Source of the DNA: Micavibrio sp.
GTDB lineage: Bacteria; Pseudomonadota; Alphaproteobacteria; UBA9219
Assembly (NCBI GenBank): GCA_020718105.1
Contig: DYDA01000001.1
Location: 1 to 62,757, forward strand
Length of the DNA stretch: 62,757 bases
Direction of reading: 5' to 3'
Shown piece after piece: positions 29,418 through 42,722 of this stretch. Position 1 is the stretch's first letter, and every line of letters starts with the position of its first letter. The translations under genes and the position numbers were made by a program. Under the pieces are notes generated by a model. The model ran no database searches and was not told where the DNA came from. It worked only from the letters and a program-made list of their open reading frames with translations.

Positions 29418-30290
29418 TTAGAACCCAGCGCGGAGCCAAGCGCATAAATGCCGCGTGAGGCGCGTTTCGTTCATCGTATAAAAATGAAAGTGCGTGACAC
29501 CATGCTCCACCAACCTTGTGATTTGATGAGAAAGAACATTCATCGCCAGCAAATCATGATCCAGACTTCCCGCTGCCGCGTCTTTAAACATGGTGTGAAG
29601 AAAGGCCGGAAGAGAAGCCTTGCAACGTTGCGCCATGGCGCAGGTGTGAGGAAAATCAAGGATGGGCAGCAAACCCGGAATAAGCGGGACATGGATGCCG
29701 CGCTTTTCAACCTTATCGCGCCAACGCAAAAAAAGTTCGGGATCAAAGAAAAATTGCGTCAAGACCGCATCAGCGCCTGCATCAACCTTATGCTTGAGAT
29801 GATCAAGATCAAACGATTCCGATGGCGATTCAGGATGCGTTTCGGGATAGCCTGCGACATAAACCAATCGGTCAGGATGATTGCGTTTAAGCGCCGCGAC
29901 GAAATCATACGTCATGGCATAGCCATCGGGATGCGGCGTATAGGGGGCGCCATGACCAAACATATCGCCCCGCAGTGCTACAAAATGCGACACGCCATCA
30001 ACAATTCTTTCCTCAACAAGGGCATCCACTTCATCGCGAGAACGTCCAGCGCAGGTTACATGCGCCACCACGGGAACATCGGTATGCTGCCTGATCCGCG
30101 CAATCACGGCGCGAACATTTAAGTCTTCATCCACGCCGCCCGCTGCCCCAAACGTCAGCGTGATCGCTGCAGGCTTCGTTGCCGCAAAAGAATCCACAGC
30201 CTGCAAAAGATGTTCCACCCCTTGCGACGTTTTGGGCGGATAAACCTCTAACGAAAAGGAAATATCGGATGGGATAAACCTCTCGATCAT
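29418..30290 (-). CDS. metF: 5,10-methylenetetrahydrofolate reductase
   Basis: Flavoenzyme that makes 5-methyltetrahydrofolate for methionine synthesis. With the ATG at 30290 it has 290 residues, typical for bacterial MetF; an in-frame upstream ATG at 30365 would lie deep inside metE and is not needed. Motifs: SFSLEVYPPKT with the catalytic Glu, ITLTFGAAGGVDED, VAHVTCAGRSRDEVDA, HFVALRGDMF (FAD) and ADAVLTQFFFDPELFLRW. The start ATG overlaps the metE stop in an ATGA, so translation of the two is coupled and the methyl donor and acceptor enzymes are produced together. Confidence 0.96.
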   Translation of the reverse strand: MIERFIPSDISFSLEVYPPKTSQGVEHLLQAVDSFAATKPAAITLTFGAAGGVDEDLNVRAVIARIRQHTDVPVVAHVTCAGRSRDEVDALVEERIVDGVSHFVALRGDMFGHGAPYTPHPDGYAMTYDFVAALKRNHPDRLVYVAGYPETHPESPSESFDLDHLKHKVDAGADAVLTQFFFDPELFLRWRDKVEKRGIHVPLIPGLLPILDFPHTCAMAQRCKASLPAFLHTMFKDAAAGSLDHDLLAMNVLSHQITRLVEHGVTHFHFYTMNETRLTRHLCAWLRAGF

Positions 30291-32578
30291 AAGCCCCCGT
30301 ACTTGCCGCGCAAAGCTTTGGCCGCGACAACCATGCGGCTTAAGGACAGCCGCGTTTCTGGCCAATCGCGTGTTTTAAGGCCGCAATCGGGGTTGATCCA
30401 AACCTGCCACGGTTCTAACTTCTCGCACGCTTTATCAATAAGGGTCACGATTTCCTCTTCCGGTGGCACGCGCGGGCTATGAATGTCATAAACGCCCGGC
30501 CCGATTTGGTTTGGGTAGTGGAACGTCGCAAAAGCGTCCAAAAGTTCCATTTGTGAACGGCTGGTTTCGATCGACAAAACATCCGCATCCAAATCCTTGA
30601 TCGATGCGATAATGTTGTTGAAATCGGAATAGCACATATGCGTGTGAATTTGCGTCTCATCACGAACGCCCGATGAAACAAGCCGGAAAGCTTGCACTGC
30701 CCACGCAAAATAAGCACCCCACGCGCTGCGTCGCAAAGGCATGCCTTCCCTAAAAGCGGGTTCATCAATTTGTATCACTTTTAAACCCGCCGCCTCTAAT
30801 TCCAAAACCTCGTCTTGTAAGGCAAGAGCAATTTGATGCGCTGTCTCATGGCGCGGCTGATCATCGCGCACAAACGACCATTGCGTAATTGTCAAAGGCC
30901 CCGTGAGCATACCTTTAACAGGTTTGGGCGTCAGGCTTTGCGCGTAATGCGACAACTCAACCGTCATAGGCGCAGGGCGCAAAACATCGCCATAGATAAG
31001 AGGGGGTTTGACCACACGCGTGCCATAAGATTGCACCCATCCGTGCTCTGTGAAGGCAAAGCCTTTCAGCTTGCTTGCAAAAAATTCAACCATGTCGTTG
31101 CGTTCAAACTCACCATGCACCAAAACGTCCAACCCAACACTTTCTTGGAATTTGATGCAGCTGGCAATTTGCTCTTTGACAAAGTGATCATAGCTTTCTT
31201 GCGTGATTGAGCCAGTGTGAACAGCCGCCCTTTTTTTCCGCACTTCCGCCGTTTGCGGAAAGGAGCCGATGGTCGTTGTCGGAAACAACGGTAGCTCCAA
31301 TGCTTTTTGCTGAACTTCGCGGCGTTTGGCAAAGGGCGAGGCTCTTCCCGCGCTTATTAACGGTTGTTCAACCATGCGCTCATGCACAGCAGGTTCATGA
31401 AGCGCCTGCGCGACTTTGCGGCTCTCCATCGCTTGTGAGCTGGCCACCAAAGCAGGGGCAATAGCGTCACGCCCTTCGTTCAAACCACGCGTTAGTGTCG
31501 TGATTTCTTCCATCTTTTGATATGCAAACGCCAACCATTTTCGTAACGAAGAGGGGATATTCTTTTCGCTTGAAACATTATAAGGAACATGAAGCAGGGA
31601 GCAAGAAGAGGTCACCCAAAGGCGGTTGTTTCCGATTTTCATGGCGGCGCGTTCCAAAAGTTGGAGCGATGCTTCAAGATTATTGCGCCAAACATTGCGG
31701 CCATTGACGACGCCAAGCGCCAAAATCATGGTCTCTGGCAAGGCGGCAAGGACGGCCTCCACTTGGTTTGCCCCACGCACCGCATCAATATGAAGGGCGT
31801 CAATAGGCAGGGCGACCACCATATCCAGATTGTCGCCAAGCTCTCCAAAAGGCGTTGTCACAAACAGTTTTAACGAAGAAGCGGCGCGCAAAGCCGCATA
31901 AGCTTTAACATAGGCGGCCTTGGCGCGATCATCCAAATCGGTCACCAAAAACGGCTCATCCAACTGAACCCATTGAGCTCCCTCTTCCTCTAAACGGCGT
32001 AGCACTTCGGCATACGCTTCCAGCAGTGAATCCAGATGATCCAACGGCGTGCCGTTTTCATGGTCTTTTCCCAACAACAAATAACTAACAGGGCCAATCA
32101 AGACAGGGCGCGTTTCAACGCCAGCGTCCGCAGCCTCACGATACTCTCTGAAAAGTTTTTCGCAGGAAACTTTAAATTTTTGTCCTTTTTCAAACTCTGG
32201 CACGATGTAATGATAGTTCGTATCAAACCATTTCGTCATTTCAGCGGCAGGCACGTCAACGCCGCCGCGCTGCTCGCCTCGCGCTATCGCAAAATAGGTT
32301 TGAAAACACACCATCCCCCCGCCCCAGCCATAGCGCACAGGGATAGCGCCCAGCAAAGCGGACATATCCAAAACCTGATCATAAAAAGAAAAATCGCCAG
32401 AGATTAAACTCTCGATCCCTGCGTCTTTTTGCATGGCGCGGTGCGCCGCGCGTTGCTCAACGCCGACTTGCTTTAAGCCCTCGGCTGAGATTTCTTCGCG
32501 CCAGTAACGCTCTGTCGCAAACTTCAGCTCACGATAAGCTCCAATACGAGGGAACCCGATGATCGTCGATTTGGCCAT
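30287..32578 (-). CDS. metE: Cobalamin-independent methionine synthase
   Basis: Transfers the methyl group of methyltetrahydrofolate polyglutamate to homocysteine without B12. All 763 residues are present. The N-terminal barrel has IGFPRIGAYRELKFATERYW. The catalytic C-terminal barrel has TTIGSFPQTAEVRKKRA, VHGEFERNDMVEFF, QIDEPAFREGMPLR, and the zinc ligands in THMCYSDFNNI and INPDCGLKTR. A large palindrome lies about 43 bp upstream of the start. No cobalamin riboswitch is visible there. It is followed by metF in an ATGA overlap. Confidence 0.97.
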   Translation of the reverse strand: MAKSTIIGFPRIGAYRELKFATERYWREEISAEGLKQVGVEQRAAHRAMQKDAGIESLISGDFSFYDQVLDMSALLGAIPVRYGWGGGMVCFQTYFAIARGEQRGGVDVPAAEMTKWFDTNYHYIVPEFEKGQKFKVSCEKLFREYREAADAGVETRPVLIGPVSYLLLGKDHENGTPLDHLDSLLEAYAEVLRRLEEEGAQWVQLDEPFLVTDLDDRAKAAYVKAYAALRAASSLKLFVTTPFGELGDNLDMVVALPIDALHIDAVRGANQVEAVLAALPETMILALGVVNGRNVWRNNLEASLQLLERAAMKIGNNRLWVTSSCSLLHVPYNVSSEKNIPSSLRKWLAFAYQKMEEITTLTRGLNEGRDAIAPALVASSQAMESRKVAQALHEPAVHERMVEQPLISAGRASPFAKRREVQQKALELPLFPTTTIGSFPQTAEVRKKRAAVHTGSITQESYDHFVKEQIASCIKFQESVGLDVLVHGEFERNDMVEFFASKLKGFAFTEHGWVQSYGTRVVKPPLIYGDVLRPAPMTVELSHYAQSLTPKPVKGMLTGPLTITQWSFVRDDQPRHETAHQIALALQDEVLELEAAGLKVIQIDEPAFREGMPLRRSAWGAYFAWAVQAFRLVSSGVRDETQIHTHMCYSDFNNIIASIKDLDADVLSIETSRSQMELLDAFATFHYPNQIGPGVYDIHSPRVPPEEEIVTLIDKACEKLEPWQVWINPDCGLKTRDWPETRLSLSRMVVAAKALRGKYGGL

Positions 32579-36461: not shown

Positions 36462-36866
36462 TCAGGGGGCAGCTGCCGTTGCGCCGCCCTTGCAGCCCAT
36501 CAGCCATAAATCATAAACGGGATGCTCCATCGCTGATAAAGCGGGGCTAGAGGCGAACATCCAGCCCTTAAAAACCCCTGCTTCCGTTTGGCCTGCCTTT
36601 ATTTCGCTGACTTCCAAAAAAGCCGCCGATTCGGGTGTTTCATCGGGTGTCGTTTCGCGGCAGCTATGCGCCGTAACGAAAAGCGTGCCGAACTTATAGG
36701 GCGTTTCCGTTTGAACATCGATTTCTTCAACCCGTGCCGTCACCTTATCCAAAACGCGCAAAACCGCCATGGGTTTTTCCACGCTAGGCACAGCCGCCAG
36801 GACGGGCAGAGAAAGCAAAGTTGCCAAAGCCCCCATCACGCCACAAACAAGCAAGCGCACCCTCAC
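36462..36866 (-). CDS. DUF2155 periplasmic protein
   Basis: 134 residues with a signal peptide (LLVCGVMGALATLLSLPVLA). The mature part contains VLRVLDKVTARVEEIDVQTE, FGTLFVTAHSCRETTPDETP and GWMFASSPALSAMEHPVYDLWLMGCK, which is the DUF2155 pattern with its conserved Cys pair. The family is alphaproteobacterial and usually sits next to NDUFA12 and MlaD genes, as here. Its role is unknown; a link to cell envelope integrity is only inferred. Starts in an ATGA overlap with the mlaD-like gene. Confidence 0.88.
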   Translation of the reverse strand: MRVRLLVCGVMGALATLLSLPVLAAVPSVEKPMAVLRVLDKVTARVEEIDVQTETPYKFGTLFVTAHSCRETTPDETPESAAFLEVSEIKAGQTEAGVFKGWMFASSPALSAMEHPVYDLWLMGCKGGATAAAP

Positions 36867-37417
36867 GGCAATGTCGGCTCAGCCACGGGCGCAGCGATGG
36901 GCGCGATGGCAGGGACAGAAGGCGTTGCAGGAGCGGCTGGAGCGGCAGGCGCAGCCTCAGCCTTTTTGCTGTAGATGAGTTGGCCAATTAAATCATCAAG
37001 GCGCATCGGCGCTTGTGTGCGGGTGAGCTTGCCACTACCGTCCGTTGGAATTATGTCTTCTTCGACGCCAATCTCAAGCGACAGATACTTGCCCCCCAAA
37101 AGGCTTTCACTGGCCACCATCGCAATGGTATCGGTCGGCAATTCCACAGAAGGCAAAAGGGTCATTTTCATACGAACAAGATATTGCGCAGGGCCTGGTT
37201 CGGTGATCAACTTCATTTCAGCAATCGAGCCAACCTTCACGCCGTTGATCTTGACGTCGCCGCCCTCTTTCAGGCCATCCACCATCGGGAAATTCGCTGA
37301 AACGGTGTAACCCTCAACCTTACGCAAATCCGCGCTGGAATAGGCAAAAACCAGAAAAAAACCGGCCACGATAAGAACGACGGCTCCCAGCACGGTTTCA
37401 ATTGCATTGCGTCCCAT
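36863..37417 (-). CDS. mlaD: MlaD-family phospholipid transport protein
   Basis: Membrane-anchored MCE-domain protein of the outer-membrane lipid asymmetry system. The ATG at 37417 follows AAGGAG by six bases and gives 184 residues. One helix (IETVLGAVVLIVAGFFLVFA) anchors it. The MCE domain follows: VSANFPMVDGLKEGGDVKING with VKVGSIAEMKL, then ASESLLGGKYLSLEIG. The last ~40 residues are an Ala/Pro repeat tail, unusual for MlaD. mlaE and mlaF are not in the window, so this may be an orphan component encoded here with NDUFA12 and DUF2155, a conserved alphaproteobacterial trio. Confidence 0.9.
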   Translation of the reverse strand: MGRNAIETVLGAVVLIVAGFFLVFAYSSADLRKVEGYTVSANFPMVDGLKEGGDVKINGVKVGSIAEMKLITEPGPAQYLVRMKMTLLPSVELPTDTIAMVASESLLGGKYLSLEIGVEEDIIPTDGSGKLTRTQAPMRLDDLIGQLIYSKKAEAAPAAPAAPATPSVPAIAPIAAPVAEPTLP

Positions 37418-37443
37418 AACCAACTCCTTCATTTTATTTTTGT

Positions 37444-37851
37444 TCACGCAGGCGGTTGCCACGCTTCAACCTTTTGAGGGCAAGGCTCTGCCTCTTTTTT
37501 CAGCCAAAGCCCCATCACGCGCCCCGACGGAAAAGAAGCCGCCACAGTTCCTGTAAGATTCGGATGATGCTTCTTATCTTTACCATAACGGCTTCCCCCA
37601 CCTTTCGGCAAGGGTTGATCGCACAGATGATGAAGCCACGCGAAATTTTCTGGCGGAACCTTGGTCGCTTCAGGCTCTCCCGCGTACAAAACCCATCTTT
37701 TTTCGGTTTTCTTTGGCCCGCGCCACGATTTGCGCACAACATAGTAACGGTTGCCATAGGCATCCGTGAAAGCCAATCGCCCGAACAGCGCCACCGTTAG
37801 CACAGTCCCGATTTGAGCCAGTCGCCTTATCCATGAAAATGCTTCGTTCAT
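37444..37851 (-). CDS. NADH:ubiquinone oxidoreductase accessory subunit, NDUFA12 family
   Basis: Homologue of the mitochondrial complex I 17.2-kDa accessory subunit, found in alphaproteobacteria and mitochondria. With the ATG at 37851 it has 135 residues. Diagnostic patches: GRLAFTDAYGNRYYVVRKSW, KRWVLYAGEPEATKVPPENF and AWLHHLCDQPLPKG. HHPNLTGTVAASFPSG is the usual C-terminal region. An upstream in-frame ATG at 37890 adds a basic stretch with no family support. It stabilises complex I peripherally; this is established for the mitochondrial protein and inferred here. Confidence 0.92.
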   Translation of the reverse strand: MNEAFSWIRRLAQIGTVLTVALFGRLAFTDAYGNRYYVVRKSWRGPKKTEKRWVLYAGEPEATKVPPENFAWLHHLCDQPLPKGGGSRYGKDKKHHPNLTGTVAASFPSGRVMGLWLKKEAEPCPQKVEAWQPPA

Positions 37852-38003
37852 TTTGTTTCTGTCTTTCTTTACTTTTCTTCTGCCACCCAATTCCTAAAAA
37901 AGATGTGAACAACTTTTAACAAAGCTTCCCTTAAAAAGGGTTTTATCAAGGATTTACCAAGGTCTGCCGCAACCGCCCCCTGTGAGTATCTTTTTCTTTA
38001 AAT

Positions 38004-38054
38004 TCACTATATTTTGTGCCATAAAATGATTGCACCACATCATCTTGTGGATAA
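38004..38054 (+). promoter_or_regulatory. Tandem NrdR boxes with an overlapping DnaA box
   Basis: Box 1 (38004-38019) reads TCACTATATTTTGTGC, close to the NrdR consensus acaCwAtATaTwGtgt. Box 2 (38035-38050) reads CCACATCATCTTGTGG, weaker but with perfect CCACA/TGTGG ends. The boxes are offset by 31 bp, the spacing known for NrdR tandem operators. TTATCCACA on the minus strand (38046-38054) overlaps box 2 and is an exact DnaA box. All lie 34-84 bp upstream of the NrdJ-like gene. NrdR and DnaA both control ribonucleotide reductase genes in other bacteria. Confidence 0.7.
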
Positions 38055-38087
38055 CTTTGATTTTGCTGAAAAACAAAGGTTTCCCCC

Positions 38088-40229
38088 ATGTACTTGGAAC
38101 GACTTTTCACGACGGGCGCGCTCCTTCCTTGGAATGCCATGCATTTTGTCACGGCAGGCAGTAAGGACGCCGTTCTTAATCCCCCTCTTCAAGTGCCCGC
38201 GACTTGGAGCCTTGAAGCGGCTCAGTCTTTTCAAGAAGCTTTGTGCCTTGCGGCGCCCACCACACGCCGCGTGGTTGAGGAAAATACGATCCCTTCATGG
38301 TTGTGGCAGCATCGCGCCAATGGGCACGCCATGGCCCCCGAACGATCGGTTATGGATGTTTTGAACCGCGTGGTGGGCGCGGCAACTTATCGTGGCTGGC
38401 AACAAGGCTTTTGGCCGGACGAAGCGACAGCCAGCGTCTTTTATGATGAAACCCGCGCCGCGATGCTTACGGGCCGCCTTGTGATCGATCCGCGCATACT
38501 GAAAACCCTTGGCCTTGATTGGGCCTATGGCCAAGCGGCAGTAACAACCAAAACAGCAGCGCCTAGCGCTTCCTTACCCCAAACACTTATCGTGCAAAAC
38601 GAAACCATTGATGCCCTGCTGCGCGAAGAGCAACCCGCCACACGTGAAAAATGGCAAAGCTTCTTTGAAAAAAGCCTAAGCCATACCACGAGCACGCTGG
38701 CCTTTGCCGATACCATGGCGCAGTGGGGATCGGGGCCAAGCGCTTCAACGGAAGCCCCCAGCGCAACCCTTAATCTGCTGGCTTTCCGACAAGACGATGG
38801 AGGGATTGATGCGACAGGCCTTCGCCACGCCACGAAGTTGGCCGTTCTTTTGTGTGAGCTTTTCTATAACGAGATGGTCGTAACGGTCTCTGCCGAACGG
38901 CCGCTTGCGATTAATATGGGCAATCTAGCCGCTATGCTGATGAGCCTCGCCTTGCCTTATGATAGCGCTTCTGCGCGGGGCACGGCGGCTTCTTTGGCGG
39001 CCATCGTCACGGCGACGGCGGCCTCAACCTCGGCGCGGATCGCCCAAAAAGTTGGAAGCTGTGCCGCTTTTGCCGGTGACCGCGAGACAACTTTACGCGC
39101 CATGAGTAACAGGCTGCGGGCAACTTTTAATGAAAAGACCGATTATGACCGCCTTGCGGTTTTGCCTCAAACAATCCGGATCGACTCTGGCGCGGATTTG
39201 GTTCTTATCGCCACGGCGCGTTATGCCAGCGAGGAAGCCTTGCACCTCGTCAGGCAGCATGGCCTTCGGCATCTTCACCTCACCACGATCACGCCTGTTC
39301 CCTCTCTTGCGTCATTGCTGGACAGCGCAAGCGTAGGCGTGATGCCCGAAACAGCCTTGGTTTGCGACTATGCCCTTGGCGAAGAGTTGTTTGAGCGCCG
39401 CGCACGCCCTGCGTTGAGGATAGCGCTGGAAGAGCTAGGCTATGCGCCAGAGGATCAAAAGGCCATTCTTGATCACATCACGGGCTATCGCACCTTGAAA
39501 GCTGCGCCCGCTATCAGCCTTACGACGCTGAGCGACAGAGGGTTGCCCGATGAGGCGTTGGAGCGCATCGAAGCCGCGTTGCCCTTCGTGAGCCAGCTAC
39601 GCCTTGCCGTTACGCCATGGGTGATCGGCCTTGATTTATGCCGCATCAACCTTGGCCTGAGTGAGCAAGAGCTTCAAAATCCCGCTTTTGATATGCTGCA
39701 TCATCTAGGGTTTTCGACGCAAGAAATCAAAATCGCCAACGCCTTTTGTTGTGGCCATAATACCCTTGATGGCGTGAGTGAGCTTAAAGAGGAACATCGC
39801 ACGCTCTTTGAAACGGTGAAAACCATTCCGCTTGATGCCCCCCTTGCTATGGCAGCGGCCATGCAAAGCTTTATCACGGACGATGTTACGTTGACGCTTG
39901 CTTTGCCAGCCACGCTGGATGCGAAGGCTCGCGCTTCACTGGTTTTGCGCGCATGGGAATTGGGCTTGAAAAGCCTGAAGCTCACGCAACAAACCTCGGC
40001 TACCGTTCCTCTTCATCAAGCAAAGCGGGCCACCTTACCAACAGCGGCGCGGGTCATGAAGCGCAAGACGCCAAGCCTTAGCGCCACGCACCCTGTTCTT
40101 AATCGCAAAAAACAAACGGGCGAGAGCGCGGCTAAACCTAAGGCCAAAGCGACAGCCCGTGCCGTTAGCTTGCATCGCAAAGCCGCACCCTTAACAGGAA
40201 AAACAACCCTGCCATCAAAACGGGGATAA
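38088..40229 (+). CDS. Degenerate class II (B12-dependent) ribonucleotide reductase paralogue lacking the catalytic core
   Basis: 713 residues, related to NrdJ at both ends. Residues ~35-150 match its N-terminal region (VPATWSLEAA, then ERSVMDVLNRVVGAATYRGW and TLGLDWAYG, equivalent to the NrdJ TGLHWAYG). The next ~65 residues replace some 300 that in NrdJ hold the Cys residues and the NPCSE radical-site motif. Homology resumes at LNLLAFRQDDGGID and continues through LMSLALPYDSASARG, ALEELGYAPEDQKAI, GYRTLKAAPAIS, FDMLHHLGFSTQEIKIAN and MQSFITDD. The Gly-rich TGTIG loop has become VPSLASL. It ends in a basic Lys-rich tail. It therefore cannot be a functional reductase, but is intact and preceded by NrdR boxes. 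A weak hairpin at 40235-40248 follows. A regulatory or scaffold role is inference. Confidence 0.75.
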   Translation: MYLERLFTTGALLPWNAMHFVTAGSKDAVLNPPLQVPATWSLEAAQSFQEALCLAAPTTRRVVEENTIPSWLWQHRANGHAMAPERSVMDVLNRVVGAATYRGWQQGFWPDEATASVFYDETRAAMLTGRLVIDPRILKTLGLDWAYGQAAVTTKTAAPSASLPQTLIVQNETIDALLREEQPATREKWQSFFEKSLSHTTSTLAFADTMAQWGSGPSASTEAPSATLNLLAFRQDDGGIDATGLRHATKLAVLLCELFYNEMVVTVSAERPLAINMGNLAAMLMSLALPYDSASARGTAASLAAIVTATAASTSARIAQKVGSCAAFAGDRETTLRAMSNRLRATFNEKTDYDRLAVLPQTIRIDSGADLVLIATARYASEEALHLVRQHGLRHLHLTTITPVPSLASLLDSASVGVMPETALVCDYALGEELFERRARPALRIALEELGYAPEDQKAILDHITGYRTLKAAPAISLTTLSDRGLPDEALERIEAALPFVSQLRLAVTPWVIGLDLCRINLGLSEQELQNPAFDMLHHLGFSTQEIKIANAFCCGHNTLDGVSELKEEHRTLFETVKTIPLDAPLAMAAAMQSFITDDVTLTLALPATLDAKARASLVLRAWELGLKSLKLTQQTSATVPLHQAKRATLPTAARVMKRKTPSLSATHPVLNRKKQTGESAAKPKAKATARAVSLHRKAAPLTGKTTLPSKRG

Positions 40230-40271
40230 CCGGCGCCTTGCGTAAGGCTGCCCCAATGAAGCGAACCAGCG

Positions 40272-42209
40272 TTAGGCTGTCTTTAATGCCGTAAGGAAAG
40301 TTTCAAATTCAGTCTTCAGTTGGCTGGCTTGTTGCGTCAAATCTTGAGCCGCGACCAAAACACGATGAGAGGACGCACCCGTGTTGCCTGCCGCTTCCGT
40401 GACAGAGGCAATGTTACGCGTGACTTCCTGCGTCCCTTGGCTTGCATCTGTTGCGCTGCGCGCAATTTCTTGTGTGGCCGCTGTCTGTTGTTGCACAGAG
40501 GCCGAAATAGAACCTGATATGCAGCTCATCTCCTCAATGATGCGACATATATCCTTGATCGCCTCAGCAGAGGCTTGGCTTACTTGTTGGACAGAAGCGA
40601 TTTGGGTAGAAATTTCTTCCGTTGCTTTAGCCGAGCTATTGGCAAGGTTTTTGACTTCAGCGGCAACGACAGCAAAGCCTTTGCCTGCGTCTCCGGCTCT
40701 TGCCGCTTCTATCGTCGCATTAAGCGCTAAAAGGTTTGTCTGTGCCGCGATGCCAGAAATCATGCTGGTAACTTCGCCGATTTTCTTGGCCGCATCGATC
40801 AACGCTCCCACGCGCGCGCCTGCCTTTGTGGCATCTTCAACCGCTTTGATGGAAACTTGAGACGACCTTGCAACTTGTCCCGCGATTTCATTAATGGATG
40901 CCGTCAGCTCCTCACTTGCGCTGGCAACTGTCTGGACATTGGCGGTGGCCGCTTCTGAAGCGGTGGCGACAATCGTTGAGCGATTAAGCGTATCTTCTGC
41001 CGTAGAAGCAAGCGATTGGGCGGCGGTTTGAAGCTCTGCCGCTGCATGAGAGATAGATGTCACAATTTCCATCATCGCACGTTTGAATTGTTCCGTCGCG
41101 GCATCAACTTTTTTCTGGCGCTGTTTCACCGCGTCTTCTTGCGACTGCGCATCCTCAAGCTCTTTTGCTTTAATCAAACTCTCTTTAAACACCTGAGCCA
41201 TTTTGGCTATCTCACCAATCTCATCGTTCGATTTTACGTCTATTGTTACATTTGTATCGCCAGCGGCCAAAGATTCTAACGTCCTGACAACACGGGACAA
41301 TGCAGCAAAAGAGCCCATCAGCATCCGCGTTAGAACGCCCATGGATAAAAGAAAGACGATTAGCGCTCCGCCAAACGTCAACAGACGCATGTTTTTTTCA
41401 TAAAGATGGCTGTCCGTCTGATCCGTTGCCATAACGAGATGGGCTAAGGGCGTTTTATCAAAACTTAAAACAGGAACAAGGCTCGTCGTAAACAGTTTCT
41501 GTCCTGAAGGAACGATAGCGGAAATTTGCTTTCCAAGGGTTGGTATATCTAAAGAAAACACGGAAAAGATTTCTTTGTTTGTATCATAAAGAGGGCGGCC
41601 ACCTGAATCGGCCATCATAAAATCAGCGCCTGTCTCACCTTTTAAGGCTGTCATGGCATTAAGGGGTGAGGCAGCAAAAACAGAAGCACCTACAAGTTTC
41701 CCTCGTTTATAAAGCGGAAAAACGACAAAGGTTTTGATCTTGCCATCGGCATCCATCCCCATGCCGCGCTGTAATTTTCCTGTCTTAAAGGCAAGCTCTA
41801 TAAGATTGACAGGATGCTTTGTCCCTTCGTATTGACCGGATGTGGCATAAAGAATAGAGCCGCCGTCATTCACAATATACAGATTGCTGATAAGCCCAGA
41901 AGAAAGCATGAAGCGTGCTGAGTTTTCAAGAAACTCTGTCATCTTGGGCTTATCATTGATGCTCACTGAATCGAGAAAATCGCGATCCCGATTAATGGCA
42001 GAGGCATTAAATTCGACATGATCCATGTTGGCAGAGATCGTTTTCTGCCATAACGTGGCTATATTAATCAGACTTGTTTCGCTACACCGCGTTTGCACGC
42101 TTTGATATAAAAACAAGGCCGCCCCAATGAGAACCCCCGCCACGATAAGCGTGGAGGACACAGAAAGAAGGATAATACGCGTTTTCAACGATACGGTATT
42201 AGCTGTCAT
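40272..42209 (-). CDS. Methyl-accepting chemotaxis protein
   Basis: 645-residue transmembrane chemoreceptor. Helix 1 (~12-35) and helix 2 (~280-302) bracket a ~240-residue periplasmic Cache-like sensor ([37 protein letters not shown]). A HAMP domain (~303-355) ends in [19 protein letters not shown]. The signalling domain has the hairpin tip [20 protein letters not shown] and [16 protein letters not shown], which binds CheA and CheW. No CheR-tethering pentapeptide is seen at the C-terminus. The ligand is unknown. No che genes are in the window. It lies 51 bp beyond the rhodanese gene on the same strand. Confidence 0.95.
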
Positions 42210-42260
42210 CTTGAGCCTTCTTTGGTGCGTGGGCGGGGGTAAAGCACAAGCCTTAATTCC

Positions 42261-42722
42261 TTATTCGACGGCATAACCAGCTTCTTTCCATGCGGGATAG
42301 CCCACACGGAAATAGTAAACCTTCTTGTAGCCCCATTCGATGGCTTTGGCGGCCATCGCTGCACTTAACGGACACTTAATGCCCTGACAATACATCACAA
42401 CAGGCTTATCCGCTGTTGTCAGTTTTTCAAGGCTCGCCTTAACAACGGCGAAATCGGCATCCGTAGGCGTTTTGGAGAGGGGAACATTTTCGGCACCAGA
42501 AATGCGGCCTGAATCAAACGCCGCCTTGCTGCGTGAATCAACAAAAAGGACACCGGCATCAAAAAGCTCTTTGGCTTTTTTGACATCGATTGTTTCAACG
42601 CCTGCTACAGATTCAACCGATAATTCTTCTGCTTGGGCTGCTTGAGGGGCGCTCATGGAGCATAGCGCCATGAAGGCCAACATAGACAAAGACAAAAAAC
42701 GCTTGGTTTTTAAGAATAGCAT
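42261..42722 (-). CDS. Periplasmic rhodanese-domain protein
   Basis: Single-domain rhodanese with a signal peptide (FLSLSMLAFMALCSMSAPQA). The ATG at 42722 follows GAAGGAGA by six bases, so 153 residues; an in-frame upstream ATG at 42737 is worse placed. VLFVDSRSKAAFDSGRISGA is the rhodanese beta-alpha region, and VVMYCQGIKCPLSAAMAAKA holds the active-site loop Cys with a second Cys six residues on. Thiosulfate or persulfide sulfur transfer in the periplasm is the family role; the substrate is not known. The start region shares a divergent, CtrA-motif-rich promoter with the TPR gene. Confidence 0.92.
   Translation of the reverse strand: MLFLKTKRFLSLSMLAFMALCSMSAPQAAQAEELSVESVAGVETIDVKKAKELFDAGVLFVDSRSKAAFDSGRISGAENVPLSKTPTDADFAVVKASLEKLTTADKPVVMYCQGIKCPLSAAMAAKAIEWGYKKVYYFRVGYPAWKEAGYAVE

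Follow-up and report, generated by a model that had tools for sequence, protein, structure and literature searches.

A class II ribonucleotide reductase homologue without its catalytic core, conserved in an alphaproteobacterial order and preceded by a predicted NrdR operator

The locus and its descent from nrdJ

Here, we analysed a stretch of 62,757 nucleotides from Micavibrio sp. (Alphaproteobacteria, UBA9219; contig DYDA01000001.1 of assembly GCA_020718105.1), referred to in its entirety as the window, with a focus on a gene for a coreless protein related to NrdJ, the class II ribonucleotide reductase (RNR). The open reading frame of this pseudo-nrdJ begins with ATG and runs intact through 713 codons (Table 1). 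In most orthologues for which sufficient flanking sequence is available, the gene adjoins a divergent NDUFA12 gene, an MlaD gene and a small conserved gene, and a full-length nrdJ occupies the matching NDUFA12-MlaD site in Kordiimonas marina (L161), a Sphingomonadales MAG (L168) and the MAGs L133, L135 and L172. As judged from sequence and gene order, the window gene is nrdJ itself, eroded in place. Transfer by a phage or plasmid was also considered and rejected, given that only distant RNR matches were obtained. A search of window positions 36500-42300 for Rfam elements, including the cobalamin riboswitch, found none. Elsewhere in the window, the forward strand between 8811 and 19859 encodes an outer-membrane efflux protein, an HlyD-type adaptor, a MotA/ExbB-like protein, a 1269-aa RTX-repeat protein and an ABC transporter, an arrangement reminiscent of a type I secretion cluster together with the secreted substrate.

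Table 1. Features of the pseudo-nrdJ locus, in window coordinates
Feature	Position	Strand	Basis
MlaD gene, syntenic marker	36863..37462	-	domain match, synteny
NDUFA12-like gene, divergent neighbour marking the ancestral nrdJ site	37444..37890	-	domain match, synteny
Predicted NrdR box 1, TCACTATATTTTGTGC	38004..38019	+	tandem pair, C4/G13
Predicted NrdR box 2, CCACATCATCTTGTGG	38035..38050	+	tandem pair; 37 bp from box end to start codon
DnaA-box sequence TGTGGATAA, overlapping NrdR box 2	38046..38054	+	identical 9-mer upstream of 17/29 orthologues
Pseudo-NrdJ, coreless NrdJ-like protein, 713 aa	38088..40229	+	ORF and domain matches
N-terminal NrdJ domain, aa 1-150	38088..38537	+	PF08471, alignment of close orthologues
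Shrunken core remnant, aa 159-224, ~NrdJ 391-485, NPCSE finger loop excised	38562..38759	+	hhalign E 4e-8
Second half-barrel and C-terminal part of NrdJ barrel, aa 225-640, phosphate loop decayed	38760..40007	+	profiles, alignment, structure
Disordered basic tail, aa 641-713, net +17	40008..40226	+	replaces NrdJ linker, TSCPD, zinc finger

A class II RNR that has lost its active site

The NCBIfam model of NrdJ (NF005736) matches the protein with 281 bits, residues 225-638 corresponding to model positions 489-918 of 1222, a score that falls below the curated cut-off of 1737 bits for the full protein. The class II N-terminal domain (PF08471, Pfam) is recognised at residues 77-127, and the RNR barrel profile (PF02867, Pfam) is matched over positions 230-447, which represent its second half, plus a C-terminal piece. 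Alignment of the retained parts with NrdJ yields an hhalign E value of 2e-182, and the closest solved structure by sequence is the NrdJ of Rhodobacter sphaeroides (7b9p). The initial annotation of this locus had described a long, intact frame with blocks from the beginning and the latter half of NrdJ, and these matches bear it out.

To follow the active site, we aligned 28 coreless orthologues, which belong to family f1 (that of the window protein) and the sister families f2 and f3, with 43 full-length alphaproteobacterial NrdJs. The radical-site cysteine of the NPCSE finger loop is present in 43/43 NrdJs and in 0/28 coreless proteins, the first redox cysteine (HACFIQS) is deleted in 28/28, and the second is replaced in 27/28, with a single f2 protein still carrying Cys at this position. 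The PTGTIG phosphate loop reads PVPSLA in the window protein, and none of the 28 coreless proteins retains both glycines. Of the NrdJ-conserved positions, about half are retained in the N-terminal domain, where the EENTxPSWLW and WAYG motifs persist in all close orthologues or nearly all of them. The fraction is about 0.35-0.65 for the retained barrel if the phosphate loop is excluded, 0.23 for this loop itself and 0.04 for the core. Thus, the absence of the NPCSE region and the decay of the TGTIG loop, both pointed out in the initial annotation, hold for the window protein and for the aligned orthologues alike, and the active-site residues that it had named as evidence to the contrary were looked for in the central region, where none of the full set is present.

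The same annotation had also proposed that some 65 residues replace about 300 residues of the enzyme. The core is indeed missing; the segment, however, is not a replacement but a shrunken remnant, given that residues 159-240 correspond in the alignment to NrdJ 391-503 without its finger loop (hhalign, query 145-240, E 4e-8). What has truly been lost is therefore the finger loop and approximately NrdJ 170-390, a region with the first redox cysteine and a large part of the first half-barrel. A foreign insert in the middle of the protein is ruled out by this alignment. Lacking every residue known to be necessary for nucleotide reduction, the window protein is, by its sequence, a catalytically dead class II RNR.

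The protein is predicted to fold. An AlphaFold2 model computed with 20 orthologues as input (mean pLDDT 80) is ordered over residues 1-636, except for a short stretch at 157-164, and disordered over the last 77 residues. It superposes on R. sphaeroides NrdJ (7b9q) over 591 residues with Z 38.7 and 2.6 A (VIA-align 2; Foldseek was also run), and on other RNRs with Z ~29, well below this value. The basic tail, likewise part of the initial annotation, carries a net charge of +17 over 73 residues and ranges from +8 to +18 in 20/20 close f1 orthologues, as opposed to a mean of -2.8 in the matching linker of NrdJ; the tail sequence itself is poorly kept across f1. Such a strongly basic tail suggests an acidic partner or nucleic acid.

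Conservation across the order

Our sample of the order consisted of 33 genomes, 30 of which match the protein; one of these matches (G015) is a 134-codon fragment, leaving 29/33 genomes with the coreless gene, nearly all of them with intact frames. The f1 proteins (~680-730 aa) are devoid of the TSCPD domain, whereas it is still present in most proteins of f3 (~810 aa) and f2 (up to 1089 aa); the coreless proteins shorten progressively across families. In a survey of the class, NrdJ-like matches were obtained in 254/386 genomes and, outside the order, the NrdJ-like frames among the matches listed span about 900-1345 aa. All 83 full-length, NPCSE-bearing NrdJs fall outside the order and all 23 loci without NPCSE fall inside it, a split that covers loci from the class and from named genomes and in which NPCSE itself was the criterion of full length. 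In the phylogeny (FastTree), the coreless proteins form one clade with a support of 1.0.

For a single pair, the window gene and its 83%-identical orthologue in G029, dN/dS equals 0.109 (NG86), compared with 0.111, 0.175 and 0.367 for three flanking genes. By this criterion, the pseudo-nrdJ gene is under purifying selection and its product is a pseudoenzyme. Both the orthologue search and the dN/dS comparison had been suggested by the initial annotation, which took a lack of orthologues as the mark of a decaying pseudogene; what we found is a coreless state shared across the order and a signal of purifying selection. The gene has been lost in two nearly complete genomes, G010 and G003, and hence is dispensable there.

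The C-terminal ~120 residues of the f3 orthologues L027, L028, L029 and L031 correspond to the TSCPD domain (PF12637) and are nearly unchanged between species. Between G008 and G009, the domain shows 0/118 amino-acid changes at a dS of about 1.1, which suggests that, even in these dead proteins, it has a function independent of nucleotide reduction. An AlphaFold2 model of the sister-family domain has a mean pLDDT of 44.

A predicted NrdR operator and a DnaA-box sequence

Binding sites of the RNR repressor NrdR consist of a pair of boxes spaced by about 31-32 bp (PMC2892513), in which the protein contacts conserved GC pairs (PMC9110341). The two boxes upstream of the window gene have a period of 31 bp and each contains both GC pairs (C4/G13); an equally good tandem pair was obtained in 0/200 shuffles. 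Tandem box scores exceed those of shuffles (p <= 0.05) in 22/29 orthologue upstream regions, namely, 18/21 in f1, 3/3 in f2 and 1/5 in f3, with no recognisable boxes in four of the five f3 genomes. In f1, no other period between 18 and 60 scores as high as 31, and the conserved block of the intergenic region consists of the two boxes and the sequence immediately flanking them.

In the same genome, nrdD is preceded by ACACTACATTTTGTGT and CACCTTCATCTTGTGG, with a period of 32, and similar pairs occur upstream of most of the other nrdD and nrdA genes inspected, although in G002 none scored high enough to be reported. A strict pattern derived from both sites of the window's own 1.9-Mb genome, which these two match by construction, has exactly two matches there, at pseudo-nrdJ and nrdD; across the 33 genomes, it retrieves 8 sites, 4 upstream of pseudo-nrdJ and 4 upstream of nrdD, as opposed to 0 matches for reversed-pattern controls. 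We considered whether the boxes could be a property of the divergent NDUFA12 gene and rejected this, because the NDUFA12 side is without boxes where pseudo-nrdJ has been lost (G010 and G003) and the boxes accompany the gene where it lies away from NDUFA12 (G002). NrdR is encoded in the window's own genome (G000:C19:23845-23970, 1.5e-20) and in 30/33 genomes of the order, and we infer that it binds at 38004-38050.

Given the overlap between box 2 and the DnaA-box sequence, part of the conservation of box 2 may reflect DnaA, and control by the cell cycle is possible. The Salmonella nrdAB promoter also shows a DnaA box (PMC2892513). A weaker element, TGTGAGTA, is located at window position 37981.

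Other RNRs and vitamin B12 in the lineage

The window's own genome is 96% complete, and the only working RNR found in it is the class III enzyme NrdD, encoded at G000:C36. The full nrdJ that the initial annotation proposed to look for was not found in this genome, which yields no second PF02867 match and no match to the class I small subunit (PF00268); the essentially complete genomes G028 and G026 similarly contain no other PF02867 copy. Genomes with pseudo-nrdJ encode NrdD only, NrdAB only, or both, and no correlation of the gene with any one RNR class was seen across the order genomes. One genome (G030; contigs C173, C12, C192 and C31) encodes an extra full-length NrdA-type RNR (928-aa frame, E 8.6e-147), in addition to several class I small subunits, NrdD and pseudo-NrdJ.

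The B12-binding domain PF02310 scores above the cut-off in 3/33 genomes of the order as opposed to 12/14 control genomes, and the loss of B12 in the order is plausibly why the enzyme died. The window also encodes MetE, the cobalamin-independent methionine synthase (30287-32578, reverse strand), which fits an order nearly without B12-binding proteins.

Discussion

Given that the gene still carries the switch of working DNA-precursor enzymes, it is probable that the dead protein continues to contribute to the supply of DNA precursors, by non-catalytic means. Thus, we propose, with a probability of about one half, that pseudo-nrdJ encodes a dead class II RNR that is made when dNTPs are low and acts as a protein partner in dNTP supply. 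In this scenario, nrdJ would have descended in place after the order had largely lost its B12-dependent enzymes. As dATP falls, NrdR would release the operator, and pseudo-NrdJ would be made together with NrdD or NrdAB. The remaining body of NrdJ, that is, the N-terminal domain and the second half-barrel, would then contact proteins and act in dNTP supply as a scaffold or a modulator, the likeliest contact being an active RNR or another former partner of NrdJ, and the basic tail of f1 would localise the protein or attach it to an acidic partner. Since class II RNRs have their canonical dimer face and dNTP specificity site in the first half-barrel, contacts would be likely to involve the N-terminal domain and the outer side of the second half-barrel. 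Tentatively, pseudo-NrdJ could be a regulator of the remaining RNRs that, induced through NrdR at low dNTPs, tunes or assembles them by binding to NrdD or NrdA, although we would not put this version at even odds. The initial annotation spoke of a former enzyme repurposed as a regulator, decoy partner or structural protein. That a former enzyme has been kept is supported by the orthologues, the selection, the folded model and the operator, whereas "repurposed" may overstate the case: the nearly unaltered TSCPD domain of two sister families points to a non-catalytic function that was retained and not newly acquired.

Such a retained function might also lie outside dNTP supply as such, for instance, at replication forks or the nucleoid, which would involve the N-terminal domain, the basic tail (or the TSCPD domain of the sister families) and an RNR-type promoter with its DnaA-box sequence. 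The consistent charge of the tail, so different from that of the NrdJ linker, the TSCPD domain of f3 with its 0/118 changes and the occurrence of TGTGGATAA upstream of 17/29 orthologues are all in line with such an old job. However, the tail sequence is not conserved and TSCPD is absent from f1, so that no single domain explains all members, and a nucleic-acid-binding fold was looked for in pseudo-NrdJ and none was found; on balance, we consider this explanation unlikely. An even less probable one casts the half-barrel as a nucleotide-binding sensor or sink, in which the ligand would be bound unreduced and a signal passed on to a partner. The retained half-barrel does contain invariant polar residues (N279, R337, N341, R344, D352 and D370), several of them also conserved in NrdJ, but with the phosphate loop decayed and the specificity-loop half-barrel largely deleted, none of the known RNR nucleotide sites is left.

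The remaining two explanations hardly merit credence. Losses of the gene in G010 and G003 and the progressive shortening across families are what one would expect of a decaying pseudogene that by chance is still open; yet the dN/dS of 0.109, the frame that is intact in almost all of the 29 genomes, the 57 invariant columns among 20 orthologues and the conserved operator speak against decay, and orthologue conservation and dN/dS rule it out for practical purposes. It is just as improbable that pseudo-NrdJ is one part of a split class II RNR, the core of which is supplied by another gene. Split enzymes of this kind exist in Pseudomonas (PMC4520616), but no other PF02867 match is present in the window's own genome, G028 or G026, an NPCSE-bearing partner is absent, and the retained part itself is without the phosphate loop and the redox cysteines. 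Thus, a core encoded elsewhere is contradicted by these genomes, of which the window's own is 96% complete.

Among characterised proteins, the NrdJ of R. sphaeroides (7b9p/7b9q) shares with pseudo-NrdJ the N-terminal domain, the second half-barrel and the overall fold, and the likeness to alphaproteobacterial NrdJ extends to the gene position and the NrdR-type promoter. Most of the first half-barrel, the finger loop, all catalytic cysteines and the phosphate loop have been lost and, in the window protein, the TSCPD domain and the C-terminal zinc finger as well. The Pseudomonas aeruginosa NrdJa/NrdJb pair (PMC4520616) is similar in that a class II RNR is not one full-length chain, but these chains jointly keep all catalytic parts, whereas the genome with pseudo-NrdJ is without the core. 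Similarity to PRK06948, the "ribonucleotide reductase-like protein" (NF005401), is weak and C-terminal (41 bits against a cut-off of 906), and pseudo-NrdJ is not a member of this family.

RNR pseudoenzymes are known from betaherpesviruses, in which an inactive homologue of the large subunit, R1, is retained (M45 of murine cytomegalovirus and its relatives) and kept for protein binding (PMC12282084), a role that pseudo-NrdJ could share. R1, however, is viral, derived from class I and directed at proteins of the host cell, whereas pseudo-NrdJ is bacterial and derived from class II, has a large internal deletion and appears to be controlled by the host's own RNR repressor. A search of the full text of the open literature, that is, outside subscription journals, found no bacterial RNR pseudoenzyme.

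The retention of a dead enzyme and of its dNTP-sensing switch after B12 had largely been given up implies that class II RNRs do more than nucleotide reduction. If correct, the regulator reading would give pseudo-NrdJ, as a cellular RNR pseudo-subunit, a position of its own in the circuit that controls dNTPs. For the folded IscU-like domain at the C-termini of class II RNRs, of which TSCPD is a candidate equivalent, no role has been reported (PMC9669993), and the role of the domain can be tested in the dead proteins, where catalysis cannot confuse the result. In G003, an f2 genome that has lost pseudo-nrdJ, a stand-alone TSCPD protein of 190 aa is encoded away from the nrdJ site (L082:1366-1938, reverse strand).
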